The position numbers and the translations under genes are program-made. From NCBI GenBank assembly GCA_024449915.1, contig JAMZAV010000365.1, positions 186,001 to 250,000 of the forward strand: DNA of 64,000 nucleotides. Reading direction: 5' to 3'. Below the pieces are notes generated by a model that was not told where the DNA came from, did not search any database, and worked only from the letters and a program-made list of their open reading frames with translations. The stretch is from Sweltsa coloradensis. Taxonomy: Eukaryota; Arthropoda; Insecta; Plecoptera; Chloroperlidae. Below, in pieces: positions 11,001-63,690 of this stretch (the first letter of the stretch is position 1; each line of letters begins with the position of its first letter).

Positions 11001-13426
11001 CAATAATAAATAATATTGGAAACATGGCCCTGTGGACAGCGAACGTCGCAAATTTTAAAATTGAAAAAAATGTGCAATGTGGGTCTAGCTATAGCACGTG
11101 CTCGCTTATCAACGCGTCCAACTGAGCGTTTCCTAGTGTTAAATAAAATATATGTATGTACTATGTAGGGCTATACATCACGTAAAAGAAATAGGTGCCT
11201 TAGTAACTAATAATGTACCGCAGTTTAGATTGGAGAAGGGTTGACAGGTTGGGAAAGAATAGAGAACATAAAGCCCAGTCTGAAGGGCTGGGGGTGACAA
11301 AACCTTTCATCAGCTGATGATGACTGCAGCTTATTTAAAGTTTATCTATCCAACTGAATTATGGAGACACCATAATAAATGTGGATACTTGTTAACGCAT
11401 TGTTTACATTATATAGGCCTATCATTTGCCTTGGTGAAGATGGCAGATTTGCTGGTGGCGGCAGTATTAAGTCTGAGATCAGCGTCATACTTGCCAAATT
11501 TTAAAGCAGTGTTTAACATTATTGGTATTGATATAAATATATGTACCTATATGAAAATAAAACATATTACAACAATGTAAAGTTTCTATTTTCATAATTG
11601 AAAATTTCAAGTGTTTGACATAATGAATTGAACTAACAGATCTCGGAGCAGCGGATGATCGGACACTAGAAGGTTTGGATGAGGTGAGGTCTTCTTACCT
11701 GAACCTGACTTCTGAGATATCGGTTACATTCCTCGGGAAATAAAACATCCTCCGGGAGTTGGTCGAGCGACTGCAAATCAGGGAAATAATGTTAGCGAGA
11801 ACACTTTGTTACCATGTGTAGCTTATTAATGGTATCAAACAATAAATTGTAAAATAGGTACCTAATTTAAATTCAATTTGTGTTGGTTGGTGACCGACGT
11901 ATTGGAATTGGTGGACCACATCTGGTCTTACCTAGTAGCTTACATGGAACAATTTTTTTCTTTTATATATTATACTATTCACCAGGATCATTAATTTGTA
12001 GTAATAGATTTTTTTACATACCTATTTTAGTATTTTATTTTACCTAGTACGTAATAATTCCTGCTCCCTACTGGTTCTCATTCTTAGGAATATTGCCATT
12101 TTTGTGTAGTTGGGTAGCCTACTTTTATAATTTCAACATTTTATTATTTTTATTCAATTAGTTTTATGTGTGCATGAGGTTATAGGCTAGTTCTAAAAAC
12201 AATAATTAATTGTTCATTGATGCACAATTGGTCCATTAATTTAATCCTGCTCAAATATTGCAAAGATTCCAGTTTACAATCAGAAGATAATTATTGGCTT
12301 AGGGCATTTATGATTTTCAATTTATCCATCAATAAAAATATAGCCTAGTGCCTATTGTTATCATATTGAGACTTTGTATCATTATCAAAACATATAGCCT
12401 ATTGCAATATAATTTCACCATTAAAACAAGTTGATATAGTGTTAGAATAGCAAGAAGACAAGCATGCTCTGGTCGTTAACTGGTTAATTGAACAATTCAG
12501 CGTCCCGTTAAAATAAGATCTATTACCACGAATCCGCGCGCATCATGTTTTACTAGCTTAAGAGCAAACTATTGATGTACCAGTTAATGGTAAAATTAGT
12601 AGTCTAAGCAAATAACAAAATGTATGAAGGTTTTATATAATTTGCTGGCACGTGAATTGCGATATTTAATTAGGTTAAGATTAAAATTTGACGTAGTCAT
12701 CAAAGACACGTCTTGCGCCATACGTATCCTGCATCTGTTTAATTTTACCAACACATTTTATCAGGATCGTAACAATGTTAGCAGTACTATGTCTTGTCAG
12801 TTATAGTGTCTGTATTTTCCTATAATTTCATTAATTAATTTATATTTTGATTAGCGAAAGTCACAACATTGATATTGCCGGTCATAGGAAGCTTTTGTTT
12901 GATATACTGTTTACGGTATGGTACATGGTATTTACTTTAATTATTCCCATGGGATTTACTTGATTCTACTACTTGCATTAGATTTTTATAAGTTCAAATA
13001 ATCGTTGAATCCGTACCTGAATCACCATTGAAAGTTTACAGGTATGGTAAAATTACATGTACCTACCTTTTTATAATTTGACTGATCTGATCGTATTGAT
13101 ATTTTAGGACCAATTATAATTTGAAACCATTTACTATCCAACCTGGTATTCAAGGTACTAAATAATACATGACCTACCTTGTTATAATTTGGCTAGATCT
13201 GTATTGATATTGTACTAAGATTATGTACCTGCGGACTTAGATTATGAGTGAAAGGCAACTTGTATACCATATTCTCATCCCTTGGCTCTCCTACTTTCAA
13301 GAGTCCCAAACTGTCCTTGTTCACAATAGTGGACATCTTGCCCTGTCCCCGTTTCTTTGCCTTCTTTACAGACCTTGCAAACTGTTTTCTGTTTAACTGG
13401 TAAGTCATTGTGCTGAGACATGCCAA
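4787..13426 (-). CDS. CCDC13: CCDC13 orthologue, coiled-coil centriolar satellite protein
   Basis: Family knowledge: CCDC13 is a long coiled-coil protein of centriolar satellites needed for cilium assembly. Exons seen, 5' to 3' on the minus strand: 13426-13229, 11770-11699, 10372-10063, 9436-9309, 8670-8511, 7785-7547, 6116-5840, and a last exon ending at 4787. Diagnostic segments are GLLKVGEP in exon 1, AASKIVELSKRVREL and EYEGAKTR in exon 3, SEIGEAVSIHS plus GWKGRAQQILSLQQKV in exon 5, HDKELIKTL in exon 6, and KDQDLRIYKSAFEEAQRLFLDG at the C-terminus, all in vertebrate CCDC13 order. Splice phases agree for the first six exons. Exon 6116-5840 needs phase 2 while the previous exon ends in phase 0, so one or more exons between 6117 and 7546 are missing from this model. 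About 540 residues are recovered against roughly 715 in human. Start could be the Met at 13426 or at 13408. Confidence 0.85.
5840..6116 (-). CDS. CCDC13: CCDC13 penultimate exon (as recovered)
   Basis: Acceptor CTGTCGCAG, donor AAG|GTAGGTAG. A Ser-rich start is followed by the coiled coil LLLAAEAERIRLLELVALLN and an Arg/Ala/Glu-rich helix. It requires an upstream exon ending in phase 2 that I did not find. Confidence 0.8.
6117..7546 (-). other. CCDC13 intron region with a missing exon
   Basis: Splice-phase bookkeeping demands coding sequence here totalling 2 modulo 3. A short minus-strand frame near 6600-6765 rich in Glu, Arg and Lys is the only candidate I see; it does not resemble the family well enough to call. 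A 25-bp fragment of the TGGAAATCAATCCAGAAATT repeat lies at about 6780-6805. Confidence 0.4.
7547..7785 (-). CDS. CCDC13: CCDC13 exon 6
   Basis: Acceptor CTTGCTAG, donor TCG|GTGAGC. About 79 codons of charged coiled coil ending RDDHDKELIKTLS, matching the GRHDDELIDAL block of the family. Confidence 0.85.
8511..8670 (-). CDS. CCDC13: CCDC13 exon 5
   Basis: Acceptor TATGTGCAG, donor CAG|GTACGATG, ends in phase 1. Contains GWKGRAQQILSLQQKV, which matches the WRGRAQQILVLQSKV block of vertebrate CCDC13 closely. Confidence 0.9.
9309..9436 (-). CDS. CCDC13: CCDC13 exon 4
   Basis: Acceptor CCAACAG, donor AAG|GTAGGTAC. Two bases complete the split codon, then 42 codons of coiled coil rich in Leu, Asn, Gln and Lys (TKALTEKLNATMSKL). 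Phases match both neighbours. Confidence 0.8.
10063..10372 (-). CDS. CCDC13: CCDC13 exon 3
   Basis: Acceptor CTTCCCTCAG, donor GG|GTACGAAC, ends in phase 1. It carries the best-conserved block (ASKIVELSKR, then EYEGAKTRWR). It is GC-rich compared with its surroundings, so several antisense frames look open. Confidence 0.85.
10434..11137. repeat. Dispersed 0.7-kb repeat, copy A
   Basis: Almost the same sequence recurs at 44,251-44,957 in the same orientation. Shared landmarks are AAGCGAGCGTTTCCATTTGA at the start, a long T-run, ACGTTCGAACGGAGGCTCGG, CATGGCAACGAAAAGACGCG, and CAACTGAGCGTTTCCTAGT at the end. GAGCGTTTCC appears at both ends in direct orientation. No TIR or reverse-transcriptase frame is seen, so the class is unknown. 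It lies in a CCDC13 intron. Confidence 0.85.
11231..11340. repeat. Foldback-family single arm (copy 1)
   Basis: One diverged arm of the repeat that forms palindromes at 28,197-28,530, 42,301-42,612 and 42,752-42,951: GATTGGAGAAGGGTTGACAG, GCCCAGTCTGAAGGGCTGGG, then GATGATGACTGCAGC. No second arm and no ribozyme sequence follow. Confidence 0.8.
11699..11770 (-). CDS. CCDC13: CCDC13 exon 2
   Basis: A 72-nt phase 0/0 exon: acceptor TGATTTGCAG, donor CAG|GTAAGAAG. It encodes SLDQLPEDVLFPEECNRYLR and four more residues, aligning with the LEDEIEHLRNELR region. Confidence 0.7.
13229..13426 (-). CDS. CCDC13: CCDC13 exon 1
   Basis: Very basic N-terminus (RKQFARSVKKAKKRGQGK) followed by LGLLKVGEPRDEN, resembling the LLHAGEPNSKN stretch of vertebrate CCDC13. 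Donor CAG|GTACAT, phase 0. Two Met codons lie close together (13426 and 13408); neither is clearly favoured. Confidence 0.7.
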
Positions 13427-26700: not shown

Positions 26701-29700
26701 TACACACAGATAAAGGATATTTGATTTATGATATGTACAAATGATTTGGATTATTTATTGGAGTAATTAACTAATTATTTATACACAATACCTTGGCCTA
26801 CAGCTACTGGTAAGATAAGGAACTAAGGCCATTTCACTTTAGTTACAATTTTACAGGAACTGTAACTTATTTTCATTGGTTCCTTTTTTATTTACTTGAC
26901 TGTACCAATTTAAGGGATGAAAGAGCCAAATCATAGTTTACTTAGAGGGTAGGCTATTGTAAAATACTCAGTTTCCTGGAAATCTAAAATTTGCCTATTC
27001 TATATTTAATTCTTGCCCCCCACCAACATGGGAGGCAAAACAACACACAATGCAACAACCCAAAGATCATTCAAAATTGATCCAGAGGACGTGAAAGCCT
27101 ACAACAACTCACACTCATCCTTATATTAAATATGTATAAATATAATACATTTTATTCCTCCAAATCTCATCATCTCATTCTTTGCAAATCCTTGGTTTTA
27201 ACTTTTTAACTACAAATCCGGATATAACTAATCATTAACCCTCTCGAGAAGATCTAAAGAAAAATGGTTATTGTTCAAAGGAAGGAACATGGTTCCATTT
27301 GGAAAAGAACTTACTAACGTCCTAGTTCCTTTTATTTTAGAGGAACTTGGAACTGGAACTAGGTCCATTTTTAAAGGAACTTACCCAACACTAACAATTG
27401 GATGAGCAAAGCAAAGAATTCAATTTCACTGATCCCCCCCCCCCCCAAAAAAAAAAATTAGCTTTTTTTTTTTTTTTGTTTGTTTGTTTGTTTTTGTTTG
27501 TCTGTTTGTTCGCTCTCTACCGGGCAAACGGCAGATGCGATCTTGATGAAAATTGGAGGGGACCTTCGAAATCTCTTAACTTAGACCTGCCACGTTTTTG
27601 GGTACAATCGAAGAAATATTTCTCATGAATATCGTACTTTTACGATTTTCCCCGATTTTTAGTGCGATATTTTCGTGACATTTGGGACGATTCTGACCAA
27701 ACGGGTGGGGCTACAACGTTCATATTTTACATGGACATTAAGGTTATGGTGATGTAGTATCTTTTGAAAGAAAAAGTTGGAAAAGTTAGCCAGAATCCAT
27801 AGAAATAAAGGTTTTCATATAAGTTTTTTGAGGTTTATAATACTAGCAATTGACAAGTAACAATAGAAACTTGACAACAATCACCTACAATGCGTTCAAA
27901 AAAAACTTGCAAAAGTAAAGAAATCCCGCACAAACTAAAAACTTATTAAAAAAGCTCATCCATCAACGCAACTAAAAAAAGCGTTCGCGAAGCGGCCTAG
28001 TATGATAGTAAATAACAATGAAAGACTAATGAGTGATTTTTTTAATCTTTAGGTTCAGTAGGGCCTACCATGTAAGGATAAATTATTCTGAATTTGATAT
28101 CATTCAAGTTTTACCTCTGGGAAAGTCATAATTTTTTTAATTGACAATTAAAAAGTTATTAAATATTAATCAATTAAATTATTGTATGTTCAATTAGTTT
28201 GGAAAAGGCCAAATGGCTAGTTTAGTTTAGATTGGAGACGGGTTGACAGGTTGGGAAAGCATAGAGAACATAAAGCCCAGCCTGAAGGGCTGGGGGCGAC
28301 AAAACTTTTCACCTGCTGATGACAACTGTAGCTAATTTAAAGTTGTTACCTTAATCCAGTCCTTAATAGTCCCAGAAGGACGAAACGCGTCGTGGATTAA
28401 GGTAACAACTTTAAATTAGCTACAGTTGTCATCAGCAGGTGAAAAGTTTTGTCGCCCCCAGCCCTTCAGGCTGGGCTTTATGTTCTCTATGCTTTCCCAA
28501 CCTGTCAACCCTTCTCCAATTTAAACTAAATTATTGTATGTGGTATATATAATGCCCTGTTACAAATACATAGTTTCATTGTACATTATTCCTTATTGCA
28601 GCTGTATTACAGCCATATTAACCTTTTTCTATGCCCTTTAATAAGGTTCTGCCCTCTCTGATACTTTATTCCCTTTCAAACCCCCTTTATTATGGTCATA
28701 CAACATACCTAATATCCCTAACCCGACAGCCCCAGGCTAGACCAGACTACTTACCTGGCCTCTATTGTTATGTACACCAAACATCTATTATTTGCTTTTA
28801 GCTCAGAGGAAATAACCCTCTTATTCCATTCAGGTGGCACAAAGGCAAGCATTCAACAGCATAAAGGAATGAGAATGCATTCATTGGTATTGGTTTGTGT
28901 GTTATGTTAGAGTGTTATCAATTTCACAATCCTGCATTTTTATATCACCAGTTTTTGTTGCCCTTGACCCCCTGCAGATAGGATAGTTTTATAAATGATG
29001 CTTATCTTGAATAACATTGGGTTCTGAGAGTTGTGCTGTTATGACAAGTAACCACATATTATTTACATTTCAAAAACAATTTTTGAAATGTAAATTTATC
29101 TTGTACCCTAGCTTTAGCTTACTTTACCACCAGTATAGTAATAATTAGCCCTACCGTCATTTCTGAAACAAATTGCATAATATAAATACATATAATCAAT
29201 ACATAATATTATAAACCGTTCAACTTGAACTTGAACTTGAACTATTTGGCATGCAACATTCACTAAAATCCTGATTTCAGTTTCCAAATTTGAAATTTAA
29301 AAAAAGAAAGCAGTAGTCAATAAACTTCATAAATCCAAACCAATGTGAATTGAATTTGAGAAAAGGTGAAACAATGTCTTTCATGTAATTGGTCTCGAGT
29401 ATTTAGTTCCCTCCTTAACAATAGATACTTTGTGTATTGTAGTGTGTTGAGAAGTCACAACTATCTTGATTGACCTTGTTGTAACCGAACATGGGACCTC
29501 TGAGAGGTCAAGATTGAGTAACAGGTGAAGAAAGTCACCGATTTCATTATAATATCATTATAGAATACGTATCAAGTAGCTAATTCACTAGAATTTGACT
29601 TGCTCTGCCAGTATCTCATCTGTAATTCTAATTTCAGAATAATCAACTAATTTTAGGTGCAAATTTTCAAAATTAATTTATAACTCTCACACACTGTTTT

Positions 29701-40090: not shown

Positions 40091-42300
40091 ATTTCTCGAC
40101 ACGGTTAGTCGTGAGAGCTGCCATGACACCGGGGGGGAAATGAACGGTCTAATCTGATCAGATGTGGTACAAAACTACTTTCAGTTTTAATCCTTATTTA
40201 TAAGGTTGTAAACATTTTAACTGACAAGTGATGTAGGCCTTTACATAAAAATCTGATTCTGTAATATATTTTTATTTTTATAAGTGAGTTTACTGGTGTC
40301 CCGGTGGTATATTTGACTTTGATATTTATGATTGTTTGTTAGTGCTGTACCAAATGCCATATTAATATTATAGTAAGAGTATTTTGTGGTCTCCTTGATT
40401 GGAGAAGACTTGTTGTAGATAAGCAATATAACTGCACTGGCAATCATTCGATGTTTCTTATTGCTCAATGTCAATGTGTTAGCACTGGATTTAAAAGAAC
40501 ACGCGGAGTAGTCACACCTTCATGTTATGCAAGACAAGGTATGTGTTGTTTTGCTACTAATCAATCGTGCATTATCCTATTAATAGAGGTGATTTTTAAC
40601 AATATTCCAATGAAGTTGCCATGTTTATCTATTTAACCGCCACTACGTATTTATGTTTGGGCTCGTGACTACTTACCTACAGAGTTTATTATAATATTAT
40701 ATTACAAATAATATATCACATCTCTGTCAAGAGAAAATATGCTTTATTATTACCATTATGATTGGTGTAGTTAGAAACTCAATATTTTTTGTTTAAAAAT
40801 ATTTTATTTATAAGTACCTACATTACTGTAGAATGGGCTTAAATGCCAAAAGTTTCATAGAGCTCCACAAAATGCCTCACAATAAAAATATTCTATTTTA
40901 ATTTTTAAACAACAGACTATGAAACTAACATTAAGTTAATAAGTTTTTAAAGTAGAAGTGCAATTACCATATCGATACTATAATATTGATTGGTAGTAAA
41001 TAAAATAAATAAATTCGTATTTAGAGTCGACCCACTCAGTCAGATATTGTTCTTAGTATGTTGGGTGGATTTTATTTTATGTCTGCTCGAACTTAATGTG
41101 GTAGCAAAGATAATGTTCATGTAGAACTCCTATCCAAGTCTTAACGTTGATTGGATTTATTTTGCGAAAATCAATACCCACAATCTTTTATCTAATATGA
41201 CTTGACACGACACTTGACACGAGGCTTTCTCCAAGAAATCTCTAGGACCAGGACGTAACAAGTTAAGTCTGTTCGGTACAACGCTACCCATCGAAAGATT
41301 CATTAATTACAACTGTCTGTCACAATGTGTTGCAGTTTCCATTCAGCTATCCTTGTATTTGGCAGCCAATTATCTCGGCAATTCTGTTTCCATATTTTGT
41401 TGTTACAAAGTCTTCTAGCCCGTCGATTGGCTAAATCTTCAAAACTCGGATTGTAATTGGTCAACGAGGTTTTACAATATTTAAAACACTTTAGTAGTGG
41501 AAATAACTCTATTTTATTTATTATATTAACCCATCGGCTTACGATTAAAAATCGCTGCGCCTGGCCCCTCAAATCCATTTATTTTTTACGAAATGGGGTT
41601 GCGGAGCGCACCTCAGCAAAAAATTCACTGCTCCAACAAAAATAACCCGATTTACTTGAAATAAAAACTAAAATGTAGCCTAAATAAATGTCTAGGTGTA
41701 TGAACTTTCCTCCGAATTTTTCTTGGTGTCAAAATATCACACCCCTCATCTTCGTCATATCCTTCAAAATATTGCAATAAGCTGTAGCCGCCATAGCGCG
41801 CGCGCCGCCTTACCACCTACGAATGCAAACATAATCTTTCCTTCAAGCATAGACAGGCTAAAACTTGACCGAGTGACGAGCCAAACACATCGTTGGATGC
41901 AGCGAAGTGCGTAGAGTACATTGAGCGTGATCTCTTGGTGATTGGACGAACCATTCTCATACAACGACCGATAATGTAGCGCACTGTTCCCTTGCTGTTC
42001 CAGCCCATCGTTCCGATGGCCAGGAAAGTCGGCGCGCATTTTGAACAGCCCGTCGATTCGACCGGCGAGAAAGCCGGTGGGTTAATACTTAATAACAACG
42101 TTTCGGAAATTACGGAAACTATTTCCGTCCTCAGGTTTCTTATGAAAAACAATTAATCAACTCCACGTGGAGTAATTTACTTTCCCAAATTTCTTGTGAA
42201 TAACAATTTATTAATCGCACAAAGAGTCGCTTAACATGGCCGAGAATCCTAGATCTTGGTGAGCACCGAACAGACTTTACATTAAGTATATGTTACAAAA
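40091..42300. other. Intergenic sequence after STARD3
   Basis: Contains the STARD3 3' UTR (possible AATAAA signals near 40,880 and 41,000) and a fragment with TATTTAGAGTCGACCCACTC (41,020-41,040) that recurs near 7840 and, inverted, near 31,930. Minus-strand frames at 41,303-41,578 and 41,813-42,152 have protein-like composition but match nothing I recognise; they may be transposon debris. Confidence 0.45.
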
Positions 42301-42612
42301 GTTTGGAAAAAGCCAACTGGCTAGTTTAGTTTAGATTGGAGAAAGGTTGACAGGTTGGGAAAGCATAGAGAACATAAAACAAAACTTTTCACCTGCTGAT
42401 GATGACTGCAGCTAATTTAAAGTTGTTTGTTAATTGTTACCTTAGTCCACGACGCGTTTCGTCCTTCTGGGAAGGACGTAAGGTAACAAACAACTTTAAA
42501 TTAGTTGCAGTTGTCATCAGCAGGTGAAAAGTTTTGTTGCCCCCAGCCCTTCAGGCTGGGCTTTATGTTCTCTTTGCTTTCCCAACCTGTCAACCCTTCT
42601 CCAATCTAAACT
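42301..42612. repeat. Foldback palindrome, copy 3, with dead hammerhead at the tip
   Basis: Same arms as copy 2; one arm lacks the AAGCCCAGCC hairpin. On the minus strand the tip has CCCAGAAGGACGAAACGCGT then C, but CTGATGA is deleted. Confidence 0.85.
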
Positions 42613-42751
42613 TTACATTAAGTATTGTTAAGAGTCATATTTGCCTATAGCTAGAGCCTCTCCTGCCAGTAGGCCTAGTCCCCTCTTGCTCCTGACGATT
42701 GATTAAACAAAACAGTTCTCTTAACATATTATCTTCTTAGTTCTAGTGTGA

Positions 42752-42951
42752 AAAATGCCTATTGGGCTAGTTAGATTGGAGAAGGGTTGACAGGTTGGGA
42801 AAGCAAAGAGAACATAAATCCCAGCCTGAAGGGCTGGGGGCGACAAAACTTTTCACCTGCTGATGACAACTGCAGCTGCATCAGCAGGTAAAAAGTTTTG
42901 TCGATTTATGTTCTCTTTGCTTTCCCAACCTGTCAACCCTTCTCCAATCTC
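42752..42951. repeat. Foldback palindrome, copy 4 (short)
   Basis: Inverted arms meet at GACAACTGCAGCTGCATCAG; the ribozyme-like tip is absent. Only about 140 bp from copy 3. Confidence 0.85.
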
Positions 42952-43264
42952 AAATATCTATCTTATATTTATCTTCTTAACTAAGCTGCACTAGAACCCT
43001 TTAATATTTTTTGAACATTTGAAGGCAATTTGATCTTCATCATGTTAAAAACTTTAGTACCGATCTTTATAAACGTCTGCTTATTAGCCTTGAATATGCA
43101 GTCCCCAAAACAAGATCAAATGTTACTTTACTTGCTTGCAGAAAATGAGATTGAAAATTATTTTTTACAATAGTGAGCCCTTTCATCCAAATTCCAAGGG
43201 ACCATACAAAAGTTTGAATAAAAAAAATAGAAACATGAGTCTGGTTTGGTTATGACGTACATCA

Positions 43265-44250: not shown

Positions 44251-44957
44251 ATTAAGCGAGCGAAGCGAGCGTTTCCATTTGACTCTGCCGGAAAAATTTG
44301 TCACTCGTTTTGTTTTTTGTTTTTTGTTTTTTTTTTGTTTGTATGTCTCGCCATAACGTTCGAACGGAGGCTCGGATCGAGTTGAAATTTTGACCATCCG
44401 CAAGCTTTGTTCTCGATTGAATGCCATTAGTTTTGTGGCAAAATCGTTAAAAAAGTTAAAAAGTTACATTAAAGTTAATCGAAAGTTTTTTTTTCAAACT
44501 AACCGGCGATAAAATCTGAGATAGCCAAATCATTTAGAATGTCCGTCCGGTCACGAATATGTTAATTTTAGTTTGATCCGATAAGTAGTGTAGATGGAAA
44601 TTACATTATAACAAAAGTAACGTTGCCATGGCAACGAAAAGACGCGCGAAGTTTCTAATGCACTGCCACCTAGAAGTAATCAAAATACTTTCGAGGAAGC
44701 AGTCTATTATTTGTCACCAAAGAGTTTAAATATTTTTCCCAATGAGTCAAGGTCCTCTAGATGGCGGTGGATTTTATCCACAAAGTAAAGATTTACATAC
44801 GGGTTTACCCAAATACCTTGGCAATAATAAATAATATCGGAAACATGGCCCTGTGGACAGCGAACGTCGCAAATTTTAAAATTTAAAAAATGTGCATTGT
44901 GGGTCTAGCTATAGCACGTGCTCGCTTATCAACGCGTCCAACTGAGCGTTTCCTAGT
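44251..44957. repeat. Dispersed 0.7-kb repeat, copy B
   Basis: Same orientation and nearly the same sequence as 10,434-11,137, including the AAGACGCGCGAAGTTTCTAA and CTAGATGGCGGTGGATT blocks. Its left end has the longer AAGCGAGCGAAGCGAGCG. Confidence 0.85.
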
Positions 44958-52800: not shown

Positions 52801-55800
52801 AATATCAATGCCCTTGGAAATTCCTCGAAAGCAACTACATCATCGCCAAAGACCAGGCAGGTTTCGACAACACCGGGGCCCCAAAGGGACCAAGTCGCCT
52901 ACTTTGCGCCAACAGTCAAAGGGGGTTTTTCAGAAAAAGGTGAAGCACACTGGCTTCTCCACGCCCTTTTCTGGATTTTCGACTCCCGCCGGGTCATGGG
53001 CGTCAAGGATGTAAAGATGAAGTACCAAACAACTTTGTCAGTGGCTCCACGATTCATTAACAAGAGGCTATCAAGGTGGCCCACAAAGGTCCCTTTTAAA
53101 AAAAACAGTAAGCGCAAAGCCGGAGTTGCTAAAGGGTACAATCACAGCGCCGACCGTCTTCAAAAATTGCAATCAAGGACCATCAAACATTGAACGGAAT
53201 ACCTGGCCTTGCGTAAAAGTTTTTGCAGAGATTTGCATTTCTTCAAGGAAAATGTCCGGTTTTGGACGGAGAAAAAAAAGGGCCTCGCCATGAGTAGTGC
53301 AGGTGGATCAAAGGCCGGTTTTAAAGATAAAACTGCAGCAAAAACCATCTGCACACTTCAATGAGTCACAATCCCTTCAATTCAACATCACTTTGATGGG
53401 AACAGATTAAACGACAGAGAGAGAAGTACCTGGCGTGACTCTCGACAAAAAAATGACCAGCAAGATCCACTTTGAAAAAGGGTGCAGGAAAAGGCCAAAA
53501 AAGATACGACCCTTCAAAGGGTAGCTGGTGGTCCGGGGGGAAAAAAAACCCCCCGGGCCCCAAAAAACGAAAAAACCACCCCTTTTTGGCCCAAACCGGC
53601 CCCCCGCCCCCAAAAAAGCCCGGCCCCGTCAAGGCCCAAAAAACCCCCCCTTTTTAAAAAGGGGGGGGGAAAAAAAAACCCCCAAATTTACGAAAAGGGG
53701 GGGCCCCCCCCAAAAAACCTCAAAGTTTAAAAAGGGAAACCCCCCCCAAAAAAAAACCCCCGAAGAAAAAACCCCCCCAAAACCCCCAAAGGGTCCCCCC
53801 CAATCAAAAAGTCGGGGACCAAATTTTCTGAAAAAATACCAACTAAGAAAAAATTCCCAACCCCTGAAGACCCCTTCCCCTTAGAATTTCCCCCACTTCC
53901 GGGGCCCTCCTTTTCCCCCGGGGGCCCAAAAATTACGGCATCGGGGAAAGAGCCAAAAAAAGAAAAAGAAAACTTGCGGAGGGCCCAAGGCCCTTTTCCC
54001 AAAAAGGGGGCCCCCTTCCCAAACCCCCAATGGGAAACGAACAGGTTCCACCATCATTTTTTAAGAAACCACCCAAAACTGGGGCAATCCCTGGGGCGGC
54101 CCTCCAGGGGGGCCCCCAAAAAAAAAAGGGGGCCCCCCCTCCCCCTCAGAAAAAAAAAATTTTGCCAAGGACCCCAAAACCACCAACCCAAAACGAAACC
54201 CCCCAACCAAAGTAAAATTTTTAAAAACCCCCGGGGGTCCCAAACCCCAAAAAAAAATTTTAAAGGGGGCCAAAAAGGGGGGAAACCCCAGCCCCAAATT
54301 TTGGGGGGAAAAGGAACCCCTTTTTTCAAAATGCCCCCAAAAACCCAAAAACCCCAAGGCCCCTTTTTAACAAAAGAAAACTAGATCGCCCCCCAAAAAA
54401 GACTTCAAAAAACCAAAAAAGGAAAAACGCAAAAACTGGTGGGAAAAAAAAGGGGCCCGACAAAACTTCCAGGAAAAAAAAAACCCCCCCTTGTTTCCGT
54501 AAAGTTTTAAAAACCCCCGAAAAATTTTGGGGGGGGGGGGGGGGGGGTGGGGGGGGGGGGGGGGGGGGGGGGGGGTTTTTTTGGGGGGGGGAGGGTTTGG
54601 GGGGGGGGGGTTTTGGGTGTTTTTTTTTTTGGGGGGGGGGGGGTTTTTTTTTTTTTGGGGGGGGTTTTTGGGGGGGGGGGAGGGGGGGGGGGTGGGGGGG
54701 GGGGGGGGGGTTTTGTGGGGGGGGGGGGGGTTTTTTGGGGTTTGGGGGGGGGGGGTTTTTTGTGTGTTTTTTTTTTTGGGGGGGCTTCGGTTTTTTTTTA
54801 AAAAATTAAAAGTGAACCCTCGCAAAAATTTTTGTTTTTTTTAAATTTTTTTTTAAATTTAATTCTTTCAAGAAATTTTTTTGACCGCTTTTCCTATATT
54901 AATTTTTTTGTAAAATAATTTTTGGGAGTTTTGGAAAACTTTTTCCCCCAAATTTCAAATTAGAAATTTAAAAAAATTGAAAATGGAAAAAAAAGTTTAC
55001 ACATTTTTAAAAGAAAAGAAAAAAAACCCTTTATTTTTTATTTTTAAAAAAACCCCCAGGGCCAACCCTACCATTAAATTAAATCATTACAATCGGATAA
55101 GCAGTAGGCATAGGTATTATAAGCAAGATTTTTTTTCAAAGCCTCTAGAAAATTTCATCGCAATTGGAGTATTGGTTTAGCCGGAATCGTGTTAACAAAC
55201 ACACAAAAATACAAACAGAAAAAAGAAGAAAAAAATCATTCCATATTTTTTTCTCCGGTGTAGTAGAATGGAATCTTCGCTTGCTACGCTCATCCAATTA
55301 TGCTATTGCAAACAGTGATCACCATAATCACCTCATTCTTAAATTCTAATGGGTAGGTCCTATACTTCCTCATCTTAAATAATTATGTTAGGCCCTACAT
55401 GTTTCGTATATCTAGGGCGACGGTCGTTCGCCCGCAGCCAAGCGCACGCGACTGCTAGTAGGCGATGATAACTCGACCCTGTTTACTCCTACCCGAGTTG
55501 GGGGGTTTTCAGCTATCTGCACACGCCGTCCCGAAATTATGTTATCACTGATATTAATTGACTCTTTTACTATTAGCATGTTAGTCTAATACCTTATGTA
55601 TTATTCTCACAGCTAGGCATACAAACATTTTAAGCCTGTACGGCATCCTTTTATACAATACCTTAAAAGTGAAGCACTCTGCGTAAATTTTAGTTTTTAT
55701 TATTAAGATTTTACTATTTATTTTATTTATTGCTTGTCGTGTTATCTGACTTGCCTACTTGTCTCAGTACCTACTTAACTTTTTATGTACCTACAATTCA

Positions 55801-58800
55801 ACTGTGTTTTGTTAGTTAGGTACCGGTACATAACTCTTCGCACATCTCCTCAGAGATTAGATTAATTTGTAAAAAAAATTGTCTAAAATGAAGAATAAAC
55901 AAGTATCTTATCTTATCTTATCATTTGCAAAATGTAGATACTATGACAATAAACCATTTATTATTTTTATTTTTATATACCTAGGCCTATAGCCCTACCA
56001 CTTCTAGGGCTCATTAGAGTTGTGCCTACTTTCAGTTGGACGAGGAGCGTCGCAAGGAGATGCGAGATTACAAGAAGAAGGCAATCGATCTTGAACGTCG
56101 TCTCGCCTTGCGACGCCAGCAGCAAGCATTGCCGGAACACCGGAACAAGTCAACTGATAGCGGGGTAGCAGGCGTCAGCCAGAAGTCCGCGTATCTCTGT
56201 GAGAGTCGACAATCAAATGGAAATCTCCTCTCCGAGTCGAGTGTCCACTCGGACCTTGACGTGTCGTACCTTGCATCTTACAACCAGTCGGAGATATTAG
56301 ACTATTTGACGGCGGTCAGCAGCCCTGAGACTTCCATGTGCAGCATTTATAAGACGCCTTGTAACAAACTCTACGAGTCTTCTGTCGGATCTCAAACGAG
56401 TTTCGTCGAGAATTCGATCGAACAAAAGCTCGCTTTCCATTCTCGAAACAAAGACTGCCGCAGCAAAAACAAAACAAAACTATCCGAGAGTAGAGAATTT
56501 CCTCATTTTCCTGGATTTGACGGGGATGGTTCTGAGAATCAACAATGTTGGACATCTCCAGTCGATGACGAGCCTAGACATACCCCTAGGCTTGTCGACA
56601 AGGCTTCCAGCACGTTAGATCTTGCACACCCAGATCATGAGAAGAGTCCGGCATCTGTGACTCTCACAGCGAGCACCGACCTCAATCCCTACCTCGATCG
56701 CTCAGGAATCGGCAGCATTGAGTCACTGACCCAAGGGAACAGACAACAAGACATTGGAGATTTGGAGATAGTATGCCCTTTTCTGAAGGCATTGGAACTC
56801 GACGGTGATTACAGGGGGGAGATGTTAACTTCGAGTAATCAGAGTGTCTTGTATTCAGAAGGAATCGTAGATTGTGGTGATATCGACGCTTCTATATCGA
56901 GAAGTCACGAGACCGCCCAGTCGATTCTAGCTCGGGCTGGAAGTGATGTCTCATACAACAAAAATGAAAAAGAACTTGAGCTTCCATTACAACAGTCTGG
57001 AAGAGTGAGTAATCCTGCGCCGTTAGCTCTAATCTGCCCTGCACAAAATGTAGGAGAGCGAAACGATATCGCCACTAGCCCAGTTCCAACGCGCACACCT
57101 ACCTTGTCACCTTCCTCTGTACCGAGCGATAAGATTGAGCGAAGCAAAGAAGAACCTTCCCACCGCTCGTTGCCCGTCTCGTACAATCTGGTTCCGCCAA
57201 ACGTTTCACTTAGACCTACCGTCACCATCACCAACTGGCTTCTGTCTTCCTTGCACGCGTCGGAACACACAGTACAGAATACCCCGGAAGGTTCGCGGTA
57301 CTCCATCGAGGGATTCTTGAACAGTTCCGACACAATAGTCTCAAACAGTGAAAACGCTGGAACATTGGCTAAAAACTACAATGACACAGATTCTGGTTTG
57401 GATCTGGAACCGAGCAAGCTAGTGGTTGAAACCGCGCCAACCACATTGAGTGTATCTTTGACAAGTATTCTTGATGCTCAGCAATGCCCTTATCTGGAAT
57501 CAAACCCAGTTGTTAACAACAGGGATGATGAGCACTGTTCAATCACAACAGAGCTGCCAACAACAGATGTAGAAAAACAGGAAGAAGAATGTGTTTCTGT
57601 TGACAAAGCAGACCTGAAAAGTGCTTTGGAAACTCATACGACTAAGAGTGAACAAAACTTAGATGATAATACAGGTGCGCTCATTCCGCCATTAATTAGA
57701 CAAAATTCCTTTACCGTACAGGCGGGTCCATCCAGTCTCCTTCGGAGCTACGTAGAAGAGAATGGGATGGAACTAAACACAGGTACATTTGAAAACCCAA
57801 AGCAAACCGATCCTGTTGCAAAATGTCCTAAAGTGAAGTCATCCTTGGGAGCCTCTGGTCGCAAGGGATGGGACTTGAACACAGCTAAAGCAATGTGGGA
57901 GTCCGTCACAAATTTGGATACATTTGTTAAACCAAAACCGATTACATCTAGAGTGAAGAAACCGATAAGTTCAAAATATCGGACTCGCAGTGTGCCTTCG
58001 ATATATTCTGCTAGCTCTTTACCAAATAGCACTAAAAACAGTCCCGAGAAAAGCTATGCGGCTTACGGCTCGGTTGATGGTTTGAATTACAAATTCCAGA
58101 GCCCAGTAAAGAGACCACGACGAAGCCTTAATTTTTCTAATCCACAATCAACTCCGACAAGTGCAACAAAGTTTGGAGGTCGTTCACGCTTGAGTGAAGT
58201 TAAGCCCTTACCTTCGCCTAGCAAAAAACAATCAGACGTGAAATCTTGTGGAAGCAATCCACATAGGGCCAGTACAGTAGAATGGGTAAGAACTTCCAGC
58301 CTTGCCAAAGTGAAATGTAAAGATAGCTCTAATAATAGCCTTGTAAAAGTGCCTAAAGTGCCTAAACAAAATCACAATTTGCCTTCAGAATCCCACAAAA
58401 TGTTGCTTCCATCAGACCTAGAGTGTCCCAAAGAAAACGCTAACCTCTCGGAGCTAATACTGCATTTAAGAAGCGAACACAGCAAACAAATGGCTCTACT
58501 TTTAGAGAAGCAACGTGCAGAGCAGGAGAAGATACAGGAGATGTTTAGAATCCAACAACAGAAGTTGATAGAGGAGATGCAACGCTCGTGCCCTGAAGCT
58601 TTCAACGATGCAGCCACTCTGCTCCCCACGGAGCTGACGCAACACGTACAATTAACTCGACGGGAGACATCTCACGAAGAAAATCAAGTCGTCCAGCAGA
58701 AAAGTCCGTCTATCATAGCCGCTGATTTGAGCCAAGCTCTAAGGAGGGCTGACACCACAAGTCAAGAAACGTCCAAGTTCCTTCAAGAGAACGTCGACAA

Positions 58801-61800
58801 CCGCAACGAATCGTCGAGGAAAGTGAGACGGCAAAACAACTCTGTGGGCAAAGACAACTTGGCTTCGTTTCTCTCAGTTGAGAGTTTGTGTGAAGATGAA
58901 AGCAACAAAGAAAACGTGGAAGTATACAACCACCATAGACAATCAAATTTCGAAGATCTTACTATTCAATCGATATCTCTCAATCAAAGTCTGCCTCATT
59001 TAGTTATTTCTGATGCTGATCTGGAGATTCCACTGTGTGGGAATGATATAGGCCTAGAAATCTCCAATATTGAAGAACTAACAAGGTCAATAGATTCATC
59101 TTCTCACAGCTTAAAAGTTGTAAGTTCTTTATCAGAAGATATTTTGAATCCGAATAGGGAAAGAATTTTGTCTACAAGAATGTATAAAAGTGTTACGAAC
59201 ATGCCAGTCGTATACTGCAATGATACTACTTCGGAACGCAATCTGCAGAATTCAACGAATTCAAACAGAAGTGTGGAAAACTACAAAGTGCACCGCAGCT
59301 ACGAGACTCTGGTCGTCCATTCCCCTCAGCCTCATGAAAACACAAACCTTTCGATTCGTTTGCCCAGCAGAAATGAAGGTGATTTCTTAAACGCAAGTCA
59401 ATGCTCACTGGGCAGAGTTCGGCACAGTCCTCGCACCACATTGAGAAACGGCGAGCTCAGCGACAGATCTTCGCTCTACAGCAACACGAGCATTCAGCGG
59501 ACGTACGAAACTCTGCACCTGCCGCACCAGAATGACTTCCGGCCAATCCGAAAACCAACAACTAAGGAAAAGGTAATTTTTCTGTCTTACAAACTGGTTT
59601 TCCGTATTTTCACGCAACTCTGAACCCCTGTAGGCCTACTTGTATACTATTCCTGTAATCTTGTACTGTAGGGCCTACATATTGCGTGTGGGATAGGATC
59701 CAACAGCTTATCAGAATTGATGATGTCTGCAAATTTGTATTGTATAGCCCTATGTATAGAAAATAAACATAAAAGTACCACAAAACACATAAATAGCCTA
59801 CGAGACGTTTCGACAGACACAATGTGACTCGAGAGAAGAAATCTTTCTTCTTCTCCTGAGTGATCGAGACATTGTGTCGAAACATCTCGTGTTTTTCTGT
59901 GATTTGTTCATACTTTATGTTGCTATTTATTTACAAATTTGGCAACCATCATGACTTCTCAATAAGTAAGCTGTTGGATCCAATCCCACTCCCAAGTCCC
60001 AATACTCCAGCCGATTAGCATTCTATCAACAACCTAGTACTGAACTGTAGCCTACATACCGTAGCCGTAGAGGTATGTAATACAGTATGTATAACTCTGC
60101 AGGGTGCTAAATGAAAAAAAAAACAATGTTTAGGCTACCTGGTCACATTAAACCAAGTTACCTGTAGCAAAGTCTGTAGTAAAGTGAAAGTCTGTGACTG
60201 TAGTACCGGTAGGTTCATGATTGATAACAGTCAATTCAGTGTCTTGACCAACAAATTTAGGTAGTACCAGACCGGTAGGCCTATTAAGTCATTGATGCAC
60301 TGATATCCTTTAGGTTTAGGCTAAGAAATCCTCAACAGTATCATAGAAATATAATCAATCAGCCCTAATTTGTTTTATTTCAGTTGGCAGCATCGAAGAT
60401 CGTTGCAGCTGCCAAGGGCTACCTAGATCGGAGGCTGATGAAGACAGAACTTGCCCAGAACATGATCACAACAATTACAGAAACGCTCAAAACTGCCATA
60501 GACTTGCGTGATGAAATCCAAAACTTTAAAAACGACAACATGCCGGTTCCTCAGGCAGACCTGGACCTACATGAGAGACTCATTAATCAGGTACGAAGGG
60601 AGAATCAAACGATCTAGACTTGGCATGACACCGTAGCTTGCATTCTTTCTTTCTTTGCTTTATTTCTTCAATGTGCTGACAAATGTGTAGGCTACATATT
60701 GTTGCTGCCAAACTGACCCCCGCAAAATGTGGTTGAACTTCAAACAGCTACTGTACTTAACTCTTGCATTATTTGTCGAAACTTGTGAATGTCAATCATT
60801 TCCAAATCTTTATAGTTTATACCATTTTCAAAATCACCTACACAACCATACACACCATTGCAAAGTATTATGGAAGGAAGGGGGTTTACACACTAACCTA
60901 AATGACATGCTCGGGTGTGTGACGGCACACACTCGGGCATTTATGGTATGTAAGTATTAAGTAGCATATAAACCCGTACCGTAATTATTATTATTATTAT
61001 TATTATTATTTAGTAACAATTTCTTAGGTACAATAATTCTTATACTAGATACAGACTTACGCTAGAGTGTGGACACAGGTAGATCTACATCTATATGCAA
61101 ATATTACTAAGGCATTATTAAGCAGGTTAGAAAGAGCTAAAAGCTCATGACACTAGTAAGCCCTGACACATAGTGCTAAACCTGCTTTTTAAACTAATTA
61201 AAAATATAATACTAACTTAAATGAGGATGATAATAGACAATAGTGCAGAGTATAGTAGAGTAGAAGAAATAGAAACGTGGGTGAGTATTTTTATAAACCA
61301 GGCAACAAAACATAATAATTAGGAAAGACGACGGGACGGTATCGGGTACGCCCGACATATCGGGTACGGTACGTGTTTCCATACCTTTACGTAAAACCCG
61401 GTTCCTAATGTAGGTGTACATTGACAGAGAGCTAAATGCAAACATGCGCTTTCTCAATCTTATGCTTGGCTAAGCTTCTTGATTGAATTAAATGTCCTTG
61501 TCATCCGCCGACTTGCGTTGTGAATGATTAAATATACCCCCCCCCCCACCTTCTGAAATTGCGAATTCAAGATATATGGTAAATAAACCAAACACACTTA
61601 TGTGTTCATTCTGCTAGAAGCCAGAACTAAACTATAACATGTGATAAACTCATATATTTTACCAAACCCGTTCCAACCCCCTCCGGCGCGGGCACACCAC
61701 GTCCGGCGCCTACGCATCGTTGTAGCGTGACCATTCACCCATCTTCTCAGTTTACTCCATACCGGATTGTTAATAATTCCCCTCTTCCGTCCTCCGTGAT

Positions 61801-62828
61801 TTTGCAATATACCTATCCATTTTCCTCTTTTATAGAACGCTTACGTCGTCGAATTTACCGCATATCTATGCGCGTTCCACAGTCATTAGACTACCCCACA
61901 CGATTGTTGTTAAACTTCCGTCTGGGTTACTGTCGGACGGGTATCTGTCGTAAAAAAGTACCGCTGGTCTTCCTCCCTCAATAATAATATACCAAATTCA
62001 TATGACCAAGGAATAGCAGCAGTGTTTGTCAATTAGTTATTCAATCCCTTAATGTGACGTGCATACTTAGCCAGAGGGGCGCACTTGATGGACTTATCCA
62101 CAGAATTCCACTTCGCAGCAACACGATACCAATACCCAGCCTGATATGAATTAGTCCTAGCAAAGGGTGGGACTAAGTTCACACCACGACTGTCTACTCT
62201 TCTGTAGCTGAGCTGCACGTGCACAATATTGGTTCACCCATGATGCTGATGATTTTGGAAATCATCTATTATATGATTGAGAAAGTCGTGGCCTTAGAAA
62301 CTACTCACTGTAGTTTCTATAGCCATGACTTTTTAATGTATAAATTATAAAATATAAATGTAGGCCTACAATGTTTTAGTTTACTGATATCCTAAAGACC
62401 ACCTGTGGCTTCATTTGTCTTTCAGTTCAATTTCATTTGTTTTGTTGTGTAGGAGTGTTCATTGCTAGACGTAAGACAAAAATACTACTTTGTGAGTACA
62501 AGTAGGTAGTATTTAATATTTATGATGTCAAAGTTGAGTCTAAATGGCTTATTTAGAATTTGCAAGAGGGTCTGGAACCGAATCCATATTTTACTACCCA
62601 ATGTCGTCCGTACTCTAAATACAAATATTTTATTTTATTTGGTCTCTTGCAGCTTGAATCGGAGCACGACTCGTTCTACTCCCTCTTCTCGTACAGCAGT
62701 GCTGCCCATCGGATGGCGGTGCTTGCAGCAGATCGCGAGAGGGTGAAGAGTGTCTCTTCACGACCGTCGTCGAGCCAACGTCCCCTGACTTCCGCGACGC
62801 AGCGAAGCCTCAAGCGCAAGCAGGAGCC
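49706..62828 (+). CDS. CCP110: CP110 centriolar coiled-coil protein (3' end beyond window)
   Basis: CP110 caps the distal ends of centrioles, limits their length and blocks premature ciliogenesis. Coding exons: 49706-49840, 56036-59572, 60384-60590, 62653-62828 (continues), giving about 1350 residues so far; human CP110 is about 1000. Exon 1 has YVSCIKIHGVPILPPL, matching the ISLIRFHGVAILSPLL motif near the human N-terminus, and exon 2 continues with EERRKEMRDYKKKAIDLE. Residues near 847-897 form a Glu/Gln-rich coiled coil (EHSKQMALLLEKQRAEQEKI) like that of human CP110. The C-terminal region has IVAAAKGYLDRRLMKTE and SSAAHRMAVLAADRERVK, close to ITAVAKGFLTRRLMQTD and MDAAERMSILHHDREVRK. The middle is Ser/Thr-rich and disordered. 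A KEN triplet at 58,907-58,915 (about residue 1003) could be a degron, by inference. All junctions agree in phase. Confidence 0.92.
50063..51464. mobile_element. TTAA-flanked TIR element in CCP110 intron
   Basis: TTAA (50,063-50,066) then AGGGATCGTTCACCTCTT on the left; AAGAGGTGAATGGACACT then TTAA (51,461-51,464) on the right. TTAA duplications suggest the piggyBac or Kolobok type. Inside are a fragment of the TTTCTGGATTGATTT repeat (50,420-50,433), a C-run (50,795-50,808), a tRNA-like B box GGTTCGAATG (51,053) and a 32-bp perfect palindrome (51,312-51,343). No transposase frame. Confidence 0.7.
51312..51343. repeat. 32-bp perfect palindrome centred on TGACGTCA
   Basis: GCTCAAGAACAGTGAC is followed directly by its exact inverse, giving a central TGACGTCA (the CRE consensus). 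The symmetry carries on outward imperfectly through CATCGCC / GGCGATG. Confidence 0.85.
51790..53540 (+). mobile_element. LINE reverse-transcriptase fragments, heavily broken
   Basis: 51,796-52,065 reads LLGVQLDENLDWSNHI, LCNKLSSCGFATKIM and GITFWGN, the C-terminal end of a CR1/Jockey-type reverse transcriptase. A second, differently framed fragment near 53,430-53,540 reads PGVTLDKKMTSKIHFEKG and RKAKKDTTLQRVAGG, a similar region of another copy. Between them the frame is lost repeatedly, partly from base-call noise. Confidence 0.6.
53520..54870. other. Homopolymer-inflated block, probable assembly error
   Basis: Runs of C and A in the left part pass into a stretch at 54,530-54,790 made almost only of G and T, then into T- and A-rich sequence. 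Open frames here (Gly/Phe or Pro/Lys polymers) are artefacts and no gene should be called. Confidence 0.8.
55870..55925. repeat. TCTTA microsatellite tail
   Basis: AAGTATCTTATCTTATCTTATC after AAAATGAAGAATAAAC looks like the 3' tail of a non-LTR element. Confidence 0.55.
56036..59572 (+). CDS. CCP110: CCP110 giant central exon
   Basis: 1179 codons without interruption, acceptor CTACTTTCAG, donor AAAAG|GTAATT. The first codon is TTG (Leu), an internal residue and not a start. Unusually long for an internal exon. Antisense frames here are shadows. Confidence 0.95.
59695..59983. repeat. Foldback repeat in CCP110 intron
   Basis: GGATCCAACAGCTTA near 59,697 is mirrored by TAAGCTGTTGGATCC near 59,975, and the inner arm ACGAGACGTTTCGACAG by TGTCGAAACATCTCGT. 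The arms total about 130 bp each, meeting at GAAGAAATCTTTCTTC. The elements share no sequence with the GATTGGAGAAGGG family. Confidence 0.8.
60384..60590 (+). CDS. CCP110: CCP110 third coding exon
   Basis: 69 codons, phase 0/0, acceptor TTTTATTTCAG, donor CAG|GTACGA. Carries KGYLDRRLMKTE and DLDLHERLINQ, corresponding to DASLQERVLAQ in human CP110. Confidence 0.95.
60985..61012. repeat. (ATT)n microsatellite
   Basis: About nine ATT units in the CCP110 intron. Confidence 0.9.
61640..62230 (-). mobile_element. LINE 3' fragment in CCP110 intron
   Basis: The minus-strand frame at 62,033-62,224 reads LVPPFARTNSYQAGYWYRVA then KWNSVDKSIKCA, the pattern (P-RT-S-x-x-x-R-x-x-x-x-WN) that ends many CR1/Jockey reverse transcriptases. 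Sequence down to about 61,640 may be its 3' UTR. Confidence 0.55.
62653..62828 (+). CDS. CCP110: CCP110 fourth coding exon
   Basis: Acceptor GGTCTCTTGCAG, donor GAGCC|GTAAGT, ends in phase 2. Encodes SAAHRMAVLAADRERVKSV and LTSATQRSLKRK, matching the ALSAATQKSLDRK block of human CP110. The remaining C-terminus lies to the right of the window. Confidence 0.93.
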
Positions 62829-63027
62829 GTAAGTCAAACATTTAACCGTGCACTAGCTGTAGGCCTATACTAGGAGATTATTACACACCGTTCGAGAATG
62901 AAGATTCAGACATAAATAATCAGTAAACATAGTTCAGTGACTGATTGAGTCGACTCTAAAACACAAGTGAGTAAACCAAGTAAGCAAGCACCTACTATGG
63001 CAGAGGCATGTAACACTTTATATGTAC

Positions 63028-63215
63028 AATAGTTTAGATTGGAGAAGGGTTGACAGGTTGGGAAAGTATAGAGAACATAAAGCCCAGCCTGAAGGGCTGG
63101 GGGCAACAAAACTTTTCACCTGCTGATGACAACTGCAGCTAATTTAAAGTTGTTTGTTACCTTAATCCACGACGCGTTTCGTCCTTCTGGGACTCATCAG
63201 GCGGATGGTGGCCAC
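63028..63215 (-). repeat. Foldback-family single arm (copy 5)
   Basis: GATTGGAGAAGGGTTGACAG through AATTTAAAGTTGTTTGTTAC, the same arm as in the palindromic copies, followed without a second arm by an intact hammerhead-like sequence. Confidence 0.85.
63165..63206 (-). ncRNA. Minimal hammerhead self-cleaving ribozyme
   Basis: Read on the minus strand: stem I 5' strand AUCCGC (63,206-63,201), core CUGAUGA (63,200-63,194), stem II GUCC-CAGAA-GGAC (63,193-63,181), GAAA (63,180-63,177), minimal stem III within ACGCGU (63,177-63,172), then C17 at 63,171 and stem I 3' strand GUGGAU (63,170-63,165). Stem I forms six pairs including one G-U. Every invariant core base is present; predicted cleavage is between 63,171 and 63,170. 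Stem III is too short to close on itself, but ACGCGU is self-complementary, so two RNAs could pair. This is the form described for hammerheads of Penelope-like elements and animal retrozymes (family knowledge). Confidence 0.85.
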
Positions 63216-63360
63216 TAAAAATCAGCTAACTACATACAAACAAAACTCACAACACATAACCAAACCTAGGTAGGGCCACGCAGAAGTAAATTCTGCATGC
63301 ATGTTGTCATCATCAGCAAGGTTACTTCACACACCATTCATACTGAGGCACACAGTCAGC

Positions 63361-63690
63361 ACAAACAGTAAGGGGGCTTCCCTCCCAACTCTGGTGCTCG
63401 GGAGACAAAAAATCCATGACTTACCCTGGATTTGAACCAGGACCCTTGGCAACAAGAGAAAAGCTGCCCCTCCTGCTGTTGCTGGGCAAGGGTGCCTCTT
63501 CATTCATTCAAAGAGAATAGGTTATAGATAGGAAGGGTGGAAAGTCACAACACAGCACAACCAGTGAGGGGGCTTCCCTCCTAGACTCTGGTGCTTGGGC
63601 GACAAAACAACCATGTCTTAACCTGGATTTGAACCAAGACCCGTGGCAACGAGAGAGGCTGCCCCACTAATTGTGACTGGGATTTAGAAA
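63361..63690 (-). repeat. Duplicated SINE-like unit
   Basis: GGGGGCTTCCCTCC, CTCTGGTGCT(C/T)GGG, CCTGGATTTGAACCA and GGCAAC(A/G)AGAGA occur at 63,371-63,470 and again at 63,568-63,665. On the minus strand TGGTTCAAATCCAGG fits a pol III B box, so a tRNA-derived SINE is likely. No A box is clear. Confidence 0.55.

Follow-up and report, generated by a model that had tools for sequence, protein, structure and literature searches.

At the right-hand end of the 64-kb stretch of Sweltsa coloradensis DNA analysed here (hereafter called the window), a hammerhead ribozyme motif lies on the minus strand, beside an arm of a dispersed repeat and opposite to a predicted plus-strand gene (Table 1). When the entire window was compared with 4227 Rfam families, positions 63206-63165 of the minus strand matched RF00163, the Rfam type I hammerhead, over the full model (1-45) with 41.2 bits (E 4.7e-7). 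This score exceeds the gathering score of 34 bits, and the match is the sole gathering-level Rfam match in the 64 kb. The motif is assigned to the type I hammerheads on the basis of the curated cut-off and of the core, in which all of the bases are present as read from the sequence. Stem I (AUCCGC/GUGGAU) consists of six pairs, one of them G-U. The core CUGAUGA is followed by a four-pair stem II (GUCC/GGAC) with the loop CAGAA, and then by GAA. After GAA come ACGCGU and the cleavage-site C at 63171, and the cut is predicted between 63171 and 63170. The ACGCGU segment is self-complementary and lacks a loop, and a monomer stem III could contain at most one A-U pair, closed by CGCG. The sequence-only reading had described an intact minimal hammerhead with this stem I, stem II, loop and ACGCGU anatomy, and had asked for a covariance search with the Rfam hammerhead models. 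That search, run on the 64-kb window, and our own reading of the sequence agree with the description. Within the window, the intact core occurs in one copy only, hereafter called the marked copy.

Which gene surrounds the ribozyme? The splice signals of the exon at 62653-62828 predict an intron after 62828, and the ribozyme lies within this intron, 336 nt past its start. The plus-strand ORF at 56018-59623 has a weak match to the Pfam family CaM_bind (19.9 bits against a cut-off of 27), which might hint at CCP110 and fits it without proving it; in a protein search with this ORF, 7997 candidates were scored and none reached an E-value of up to 0.001. We assume that the exon and the ORF belong to one gene. 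The ribozyme is antisense to this predicted gene, and the host pre-mRNA would therefore carry its complement, not the ribozyme. The earlier placement of the ribozyme within an intron of CCP110 can thus be kept in part: the acceptor and the GTAAGT donor fit an intron, while the CCP110 label is weak at this score and the ribozyme is on the opposite strand. Positions 54500-54860 are a long low-complexity G/T tract, possibly a weak spot of the assembly. Direct copies of another repeat of about 660 bp, 94% identical, lie at 10499-11147 and 44308-44966.

A second repeat is found close to the ribozyme. The interval 63346-63681 contains two diverged head-to-tail copies, which are 81% identical, lie about 197 bp apart and carry GGTTCAAATCC on the minus strand; by their sequence they look like a tRNA-derived SINE. 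The ARAGORN scan found no tRNA in the window. The B-box-like GGTTCAAATCC sites are at 63428-63438 and 63625-63635, and each is followed by a run of plus-strand A, that is, of minus-strand T, at 63407-63412 and 63604-63607, respectively. Transcription of the ribozyme by pol III from these sites was considered and rejected, because the minus-strand T runs intervene between the sites and the ribozyme.

Table 1. Positions, strands and supporting evidence of the features in the window
Feature	Position	Strand	Evidence or remark
Intact minimal type I hammerhead	63165..63206	-	RF00163, 41.2 bits vs 34; predicted cut 63171/63170
ACGCGU replacing stem III	63172..63177	-	monomer, 1 A-U pair + palindromic CGCG; predicted dimer, 6 pairs; sequence and cofold
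Single arm 3′ of the cut site, candidate Penelope-like pLTR	63032..63170	-	ends in CCAATCTAAAC; self-BLAST, nhmmer, alignment
Predicted exon, opposite strand to ribozyme	62653..62828	+	AG acceptor before 62653, GTAAGT donor at 62829
Inverted arm pair, 337 bp (28-kb pair)	28190..28526	+	damaged hammerhead in centre, 28354-28397
15-bp target-site duplication, 28-kb pair	left 28175..28189, right 28527-28541	.	15/15 identical
35-nt tail, left arm only, 28-kb pair	28190..28224	-	29/35 identical to 42290-42328 tail
Inverted arm pair, 320 bp (42.3-kb pair)	42290..42609	-	centre holds hammerhead 3′ half, minus strand
16-bp target-site duplication, 42.3-kb pair	left 42274..42289, right 42610-42625	.	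16/16 identical
39-nt tail, left arm only, 42.3-kb pair	42290..42328	-	sequence
Short inverted arm pair, 229 bp (42.7-kb pair)	42740..42968	.	without hammerhead; 30-nt left extension, 11-bp duplication
11-bp duplication, 42.7-kb pair	42729-42739/42969-42979	.	perfect
Solo arm	11222..11345	-	without hammerhead; no target-site duplication found

Self-BLAST of the window revealed that the arm adjoining the ribozyme recurs at 28.2-28.5 kb, 42.3-43.0 kb and 11.2 kb. In an nhmmer profile search of the 64 kb, eight arms were found at an E-value of 2.2e-22 or better and the next candidate at 0.16; the profile was built from the same eight arms, and this gap shows only the absence of further clear copies. 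The eight arms, all from this one 64-kb window, make up five insertions: three head-to-head inverted pairs and two single arms. The name “unclassified foldback repeat”, given by the sequence-only reading, accordingly suits the three inverted sister copies and fails for the marked copy, which is a single arm. A 14-nt inverted match does lie near the marked arm (63120-63133/63303-63316), and by a rough estimate it is of the size expected by chance. The hammerhead remnant in the centre of the 28-kb pair scores 16.2 bits and has a broken core, and in the 42.3-kb pair a search at E up to 10 returned nothing for RF00163. Two arms lack the CCCAGCC...GGCTGGG hairpin, near 42378 and near 42903, with differing endpoints. 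Judging from the sequence, they look as if a reverse transcriptase had twice skipped this stable hairpin. Matches to microRNA families at 42200-43080 stay below the cut-offs, and probably reflect the palindromes.

The flanks of the insertions are informative. All three inverted pairs are bounded by perfect duplications, which measure 15, 16 and 11 bp in order of position, and among 2000 random flank pairs drawn from the same window, the fractions scoring as high were 0.002 for the 28-kb pair, 0.0005 for the 42.3-kb pair and 0.0095 for the 42.7-kb pair. The first two bases of the duplication copy at 42610-42625 may instead be the end of the arm. No duplication was found at the 11-kb solo arm or at the 63-kb copy, where the best scores were matched by 0.63 of the random pairs; in a wide search around the 63-kb copy, extending to 64000, the best candidate was an 11-mer, which a fraction of 0.103 of 1000 controls equalled. 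In the 28-kb and 42.3-kb pairs, the left arms bear tails and the right ends have none. The 42.7-kb pair is less clean: its 30-nt left extension (42740-42769) is identical to the other two tails at 17/30 and 16/30 positions (about 55%), and 17 unrelated bases (42952-42968) occupy its right side. A small hairpin of the GCC...GGC type folds in all three left extensions. In the alignment, the two single arms carry no tail.

To which family does this repeat belong? Inverted pseudo-LTRs (pLTRs), an optional tail of 30-40 bp and minimal hammerheads are published features of Penelope-like elements, and we assign the repeat to these elements for this reason. In the window, inverted pLTRs are present in three of the five insertions, the marked copy being single. 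The one-sided tail of 30-40 bp is clear in two of the three inverted pairs, and every pair has its target-site duplication. The minimal type I hammerhead resides in the pLTR, and its remnants persist in two sister copies. We are therefore fairly confident that an arm which is likely a Penelope-like pseudo-LTR carries at its 5′ edge, at positions 63165-63206 of the minus strand, an intact minimal type I hammerhead, and that this ribozyme, if transcribed, would likely cleave mainly as a dimer.

The coding capacity of the repeat was also considered. Neither a reverse transcriptase nor a GIY-YIG domain linked to the repeat was found among the upstream peptides and seven ORFs of the window. None of the five peptides read upstream of the ribozyme had a Pfam match at E up to 1, and in the protein search the 54-residue upstream reading had too few words in common with any protein to yield a candidate. 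By eye from the alignment, stops occur in every frame from the arm through the tail, as expected for non-autonomous copies. Among the 7 of the 72 listed ORFs that were compared with Pfam, the sole RVT_1 match is distant, at 19473-20084. This minus-strand reverse transcriptase fragment is LINE-like by its look, and not Penelope.

Pattern searches were carried out in viral contigs and prokaryote genomes. The exact hammerhead pattern ending in GAAACGCGTC had no match in either collection, and two exact repeat-specific patterns had none. With a looser hammerhead pattern there were 28 matches, in 20 viral stretches and one bacterial contig; none of them has GAAACGCGTC, and thus no relatives of the 63-kb motif are among them. 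The 20 viral stretches (L001-L020) hold 27 of these matches, with several per contig in some (L016 and L020), and by a crude count stem III has at least 5 bp in 17 of the 27, unlike the 63-kb motif.

Two other identities have to be weighed against the Penelope-like one. An animal non-LTR retrozyme would be a tandem unit, whose monomers are released by the hammerheads and circularise as RNA. The type I hammerhead itself would agree with this identity, as would the very short helix III with a palindromic tetraloop, which resembles one axolotl class (PMC7229834), and the inverted pairs of 229-337 bp fall inside the 170-400-nt range of retrozyme RNAs (PMC7229834). Retrozymes are, however, described as tandem repeats (PMC7229834), and the window shows no tandem head-to-tail copies of the arm; its sister copies stand head-to-head in inverted orientation and have one-sided tails. 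A search of the window for an array of 150-450-bp units, each with a hammerhead, was negative, and we consider a retrozyme improbable. Accordingly, the earlier proposal of a non-autonomous Penelope-like or retrozyme relative survives in its first half, which the inverted sisters, one-sided tails and duplications favour, and loses its second half for want of tandem copies in the window. The inverted arms and the flanking duplications could also suggest a foldback or MITE-type DNA transposon, with a hammerhead in its loop that arose by chance or was captured. Against this, the duplication length varies (11, 15 and 16 bp), the tails are one-sided, the intact hammerhead belongs to a copy without a second arm, and the loss of the CCCAGCC hairpin from two arms with differing endpoints would fit an enzyme skipping on an RNA template. 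The DNA transposon was rejected on the variable duplications and one-sided tails, and we regard it as very improbable.

How could the Penelope-like hammerhead work with ACGCGU in place of stem III? In the monomer, the MFE fold pairs part of the hammerhead core. The cofold MFE structure of two molecules is a double hammerhead in which stem III has six pairs, at -27.5 kcal/mol as compared to 2 x -10.7 kcal/mol. When the six stem-III letters were permuted, 13 of the 180 orders produced the double hammerhead in cofolding, and all 13 fall among the 24 self-complementary orders. The energy gain of the dimer is ordinary, as an equal or larger gain was obtained with 353 of 500 shuffles, and this control speaks against a special stability of the dimer. 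Self-cleavage of the minus strand at 63171/63170 is possible, and it would likely need the dimer. Penelope pLTR hammerheads usually lack helix III (PMC6155905), and those of the minimal type I may self-cleave as dimers (PMC7761336). In the Anolis Poseidon element PAc, the hammerhead cleaved only upon the addition of the element protein, with no RNA-seq reads ending at the cut site (PMC11167929), which counts against dimerisation alone sufficing. Cleavage at the 63-kb locus would require a minus-strand transcript, a second molecule to pair with and perhaps a protein.

The sister copies also bear on the order of cleavage and reverse transcription. Five arms reach the ribozyme (both of the 28-kb pair, both of the 42.3-kb pair and the marked copy). 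If cleavage preceded reverse transcription, arm ends would be expected at the cut site, and none of the five arms ends there. The 28-kb right arm, the 42.3-kb left arm and the marked copy run unbroken across it. The other two arms constitute weaker evidence, in that they carry AAGGAC 5′ of the cut but not the 11- or 15-nt piece spanning it. The absence of arm ends at the cut site indicates that the templates were likely uncleaved there.

Are the two arms of a pair the product of one cDNA or two? In self-priming, a single cDNA would fold back in stem II and continue on itself, as has been proposed for Penelope palindromes (PMC3846280). Consistent with this, the 28-kb and 42.3-kb pairs, which both reach the ribozyme, turn at the same GTCCTT...AAGGAC of stem II, and in the 42.3-kb pair just 5 nt (CTGGG) separate the two motifs. 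Moreover, the 28-kb arms differ from each other at only 2/131 columns and share a private mark at column 41, found in no other arm, and the 42.7-kb arms, differing at 3/82 columns, share their own mark at column 95; the alignment behind these column counts is poor at the 5′ ends. On the other hand, a folded-back cDNA would put a tail on both sides or on neither, unless it stopped short. Folding back also predicts identical arms, and the arms of the 42.3-kb pair differ at 5/98 columns, plus indels. At three of these columns (46, 47 and 108), they are discordant for subfamily marks, each state being common to arms of other insertions. Such a discordance, present in one of the three pairs, is not expected if a single cDNA folds back, and judging from the sequence it is in line with a separate RNA template for each of two cDNAs. 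The 42.3-kb pair could also have been copied from an older palindrome with already diverged arms. The 28-kb and 42.7-kb pairs could have arisen through self-priming of one cDNA, from two RNAs of one source or by the copying of an older palindrome. Overall, self-priming of a single cDNA is a serious possibility as the origin of the palindromes, although we would put it at clearly less than an even chance.

In tandem transcripts of the element, ACGCGU would bring two hammerheads together as the double hammerhead, which would be cut between the units, as proposed for related elements. In the reading that we prefer to self-priming, both ends of a staggered DNA break would prime reverse transcription, producing palindromic sister copies. 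Each cDNA would begin at one of two start sites, which would explain why only one side has a tail, and both cDNAs would meet within stem II of the ribozyme. We tentatively propose, as a possibility that we would not call probable, that Penelope-like inverted insertions arise from two reverse transcriptions, started at both ends of one break on two different uncleaved templates and colliding in stem II, and that what the ribozyme marks is the junction of the cDNAs, not the end of a template. The sister copies make both the cleavage order and the fold-back question testable from sequence, and although the present sample is small, the test scales to a whole genome.

The 63-kb copy is probably a passenger, a single pseudo-LTR antisense to its host gene. 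The human RECK and CTCL genes contain intronic hammerheads (PMC6155905), and one could imagine that an intact motif located 336 nt past a predicted splice donor serves the host within the predicted CCP110 intron. The antisense orientation speaks against such a role, and no promoter was identified for the ribozyme strand. Furthermore, the marked arm differs from the nearest sister arm at only 3/122 columns and is thus a fairly young copy, in which an intact 42-nt motif needs no selection. We consider a host role extremely improbable.

The primary papers on the hammerheads of Penelope pLTRs are reportedly those of Cervera and de la Pena (2014) and Lunse et al. (2017). The 63-kb motif resembles these hammerheads as they are described in PMC7761336, with its minimal core, the lack of a real stem III, the palindromic bases suited to a dimer, and a dispersed repeat like a pLTR; unlike in that description, neither a tandem copy nor a coding region is visible in the window. 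A curation guide likewise names inverted pLTRs and 3′ extensions for Penelope-like elements (PMC8969392), and a paper on Drosophila virilis elements (PMC12910113) added nothing that alters the Penelope-like reading. Animal non-LTR retrozymes (PMC7229834) share the type I hammerhead and the size range, but they are tandem and give circular RNA, whereas the copies in the window are head-to-head or single.

The arrangement of the insertions resembles what has been reported for Penelope of Adineta vaga, in which the pLTRs are inverted, one of them has an optional 31-bp tail, palindromes occur at the inverted junction, and duplications of 8-10 bp flank some copies and are lacking in others (PMC3846280). 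The repeat in the window likewise has inverted pLTRs, a junction palindrome, a tail on one side only and duplications in some of its copies. The two differ in that the duplications in the window are longer (11-16 bp) and no open reading frame is present in its arms; the word hammerhead occurs 0 times in the Adineta vaga paper (PMC3846280). In Anolis PAc, a tail of 30-40 bp is the stretch between two start sites of reverse transcription, the PAc enzyme cuts and extends both DNA strands in vitro, and unprocessed RNA was suggested to be its main in vitro template (PMC11167929). PAc encodes a reverse transcriptase and an endonuclease, with a hammerhead that overlaps the reading-frame start and depends on protein for cleavage, and in these respects the repeat in the window is unlike it. 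The two are alike in the hammerhead at the pLTR, in the tail that two start sites would produce, and in the uncleaved template, which was suggested in vitro for PAc and is likely here from the arm ends. Set beside these systems, the intact hammerhead and its repeat are a good new example of an already known kind.
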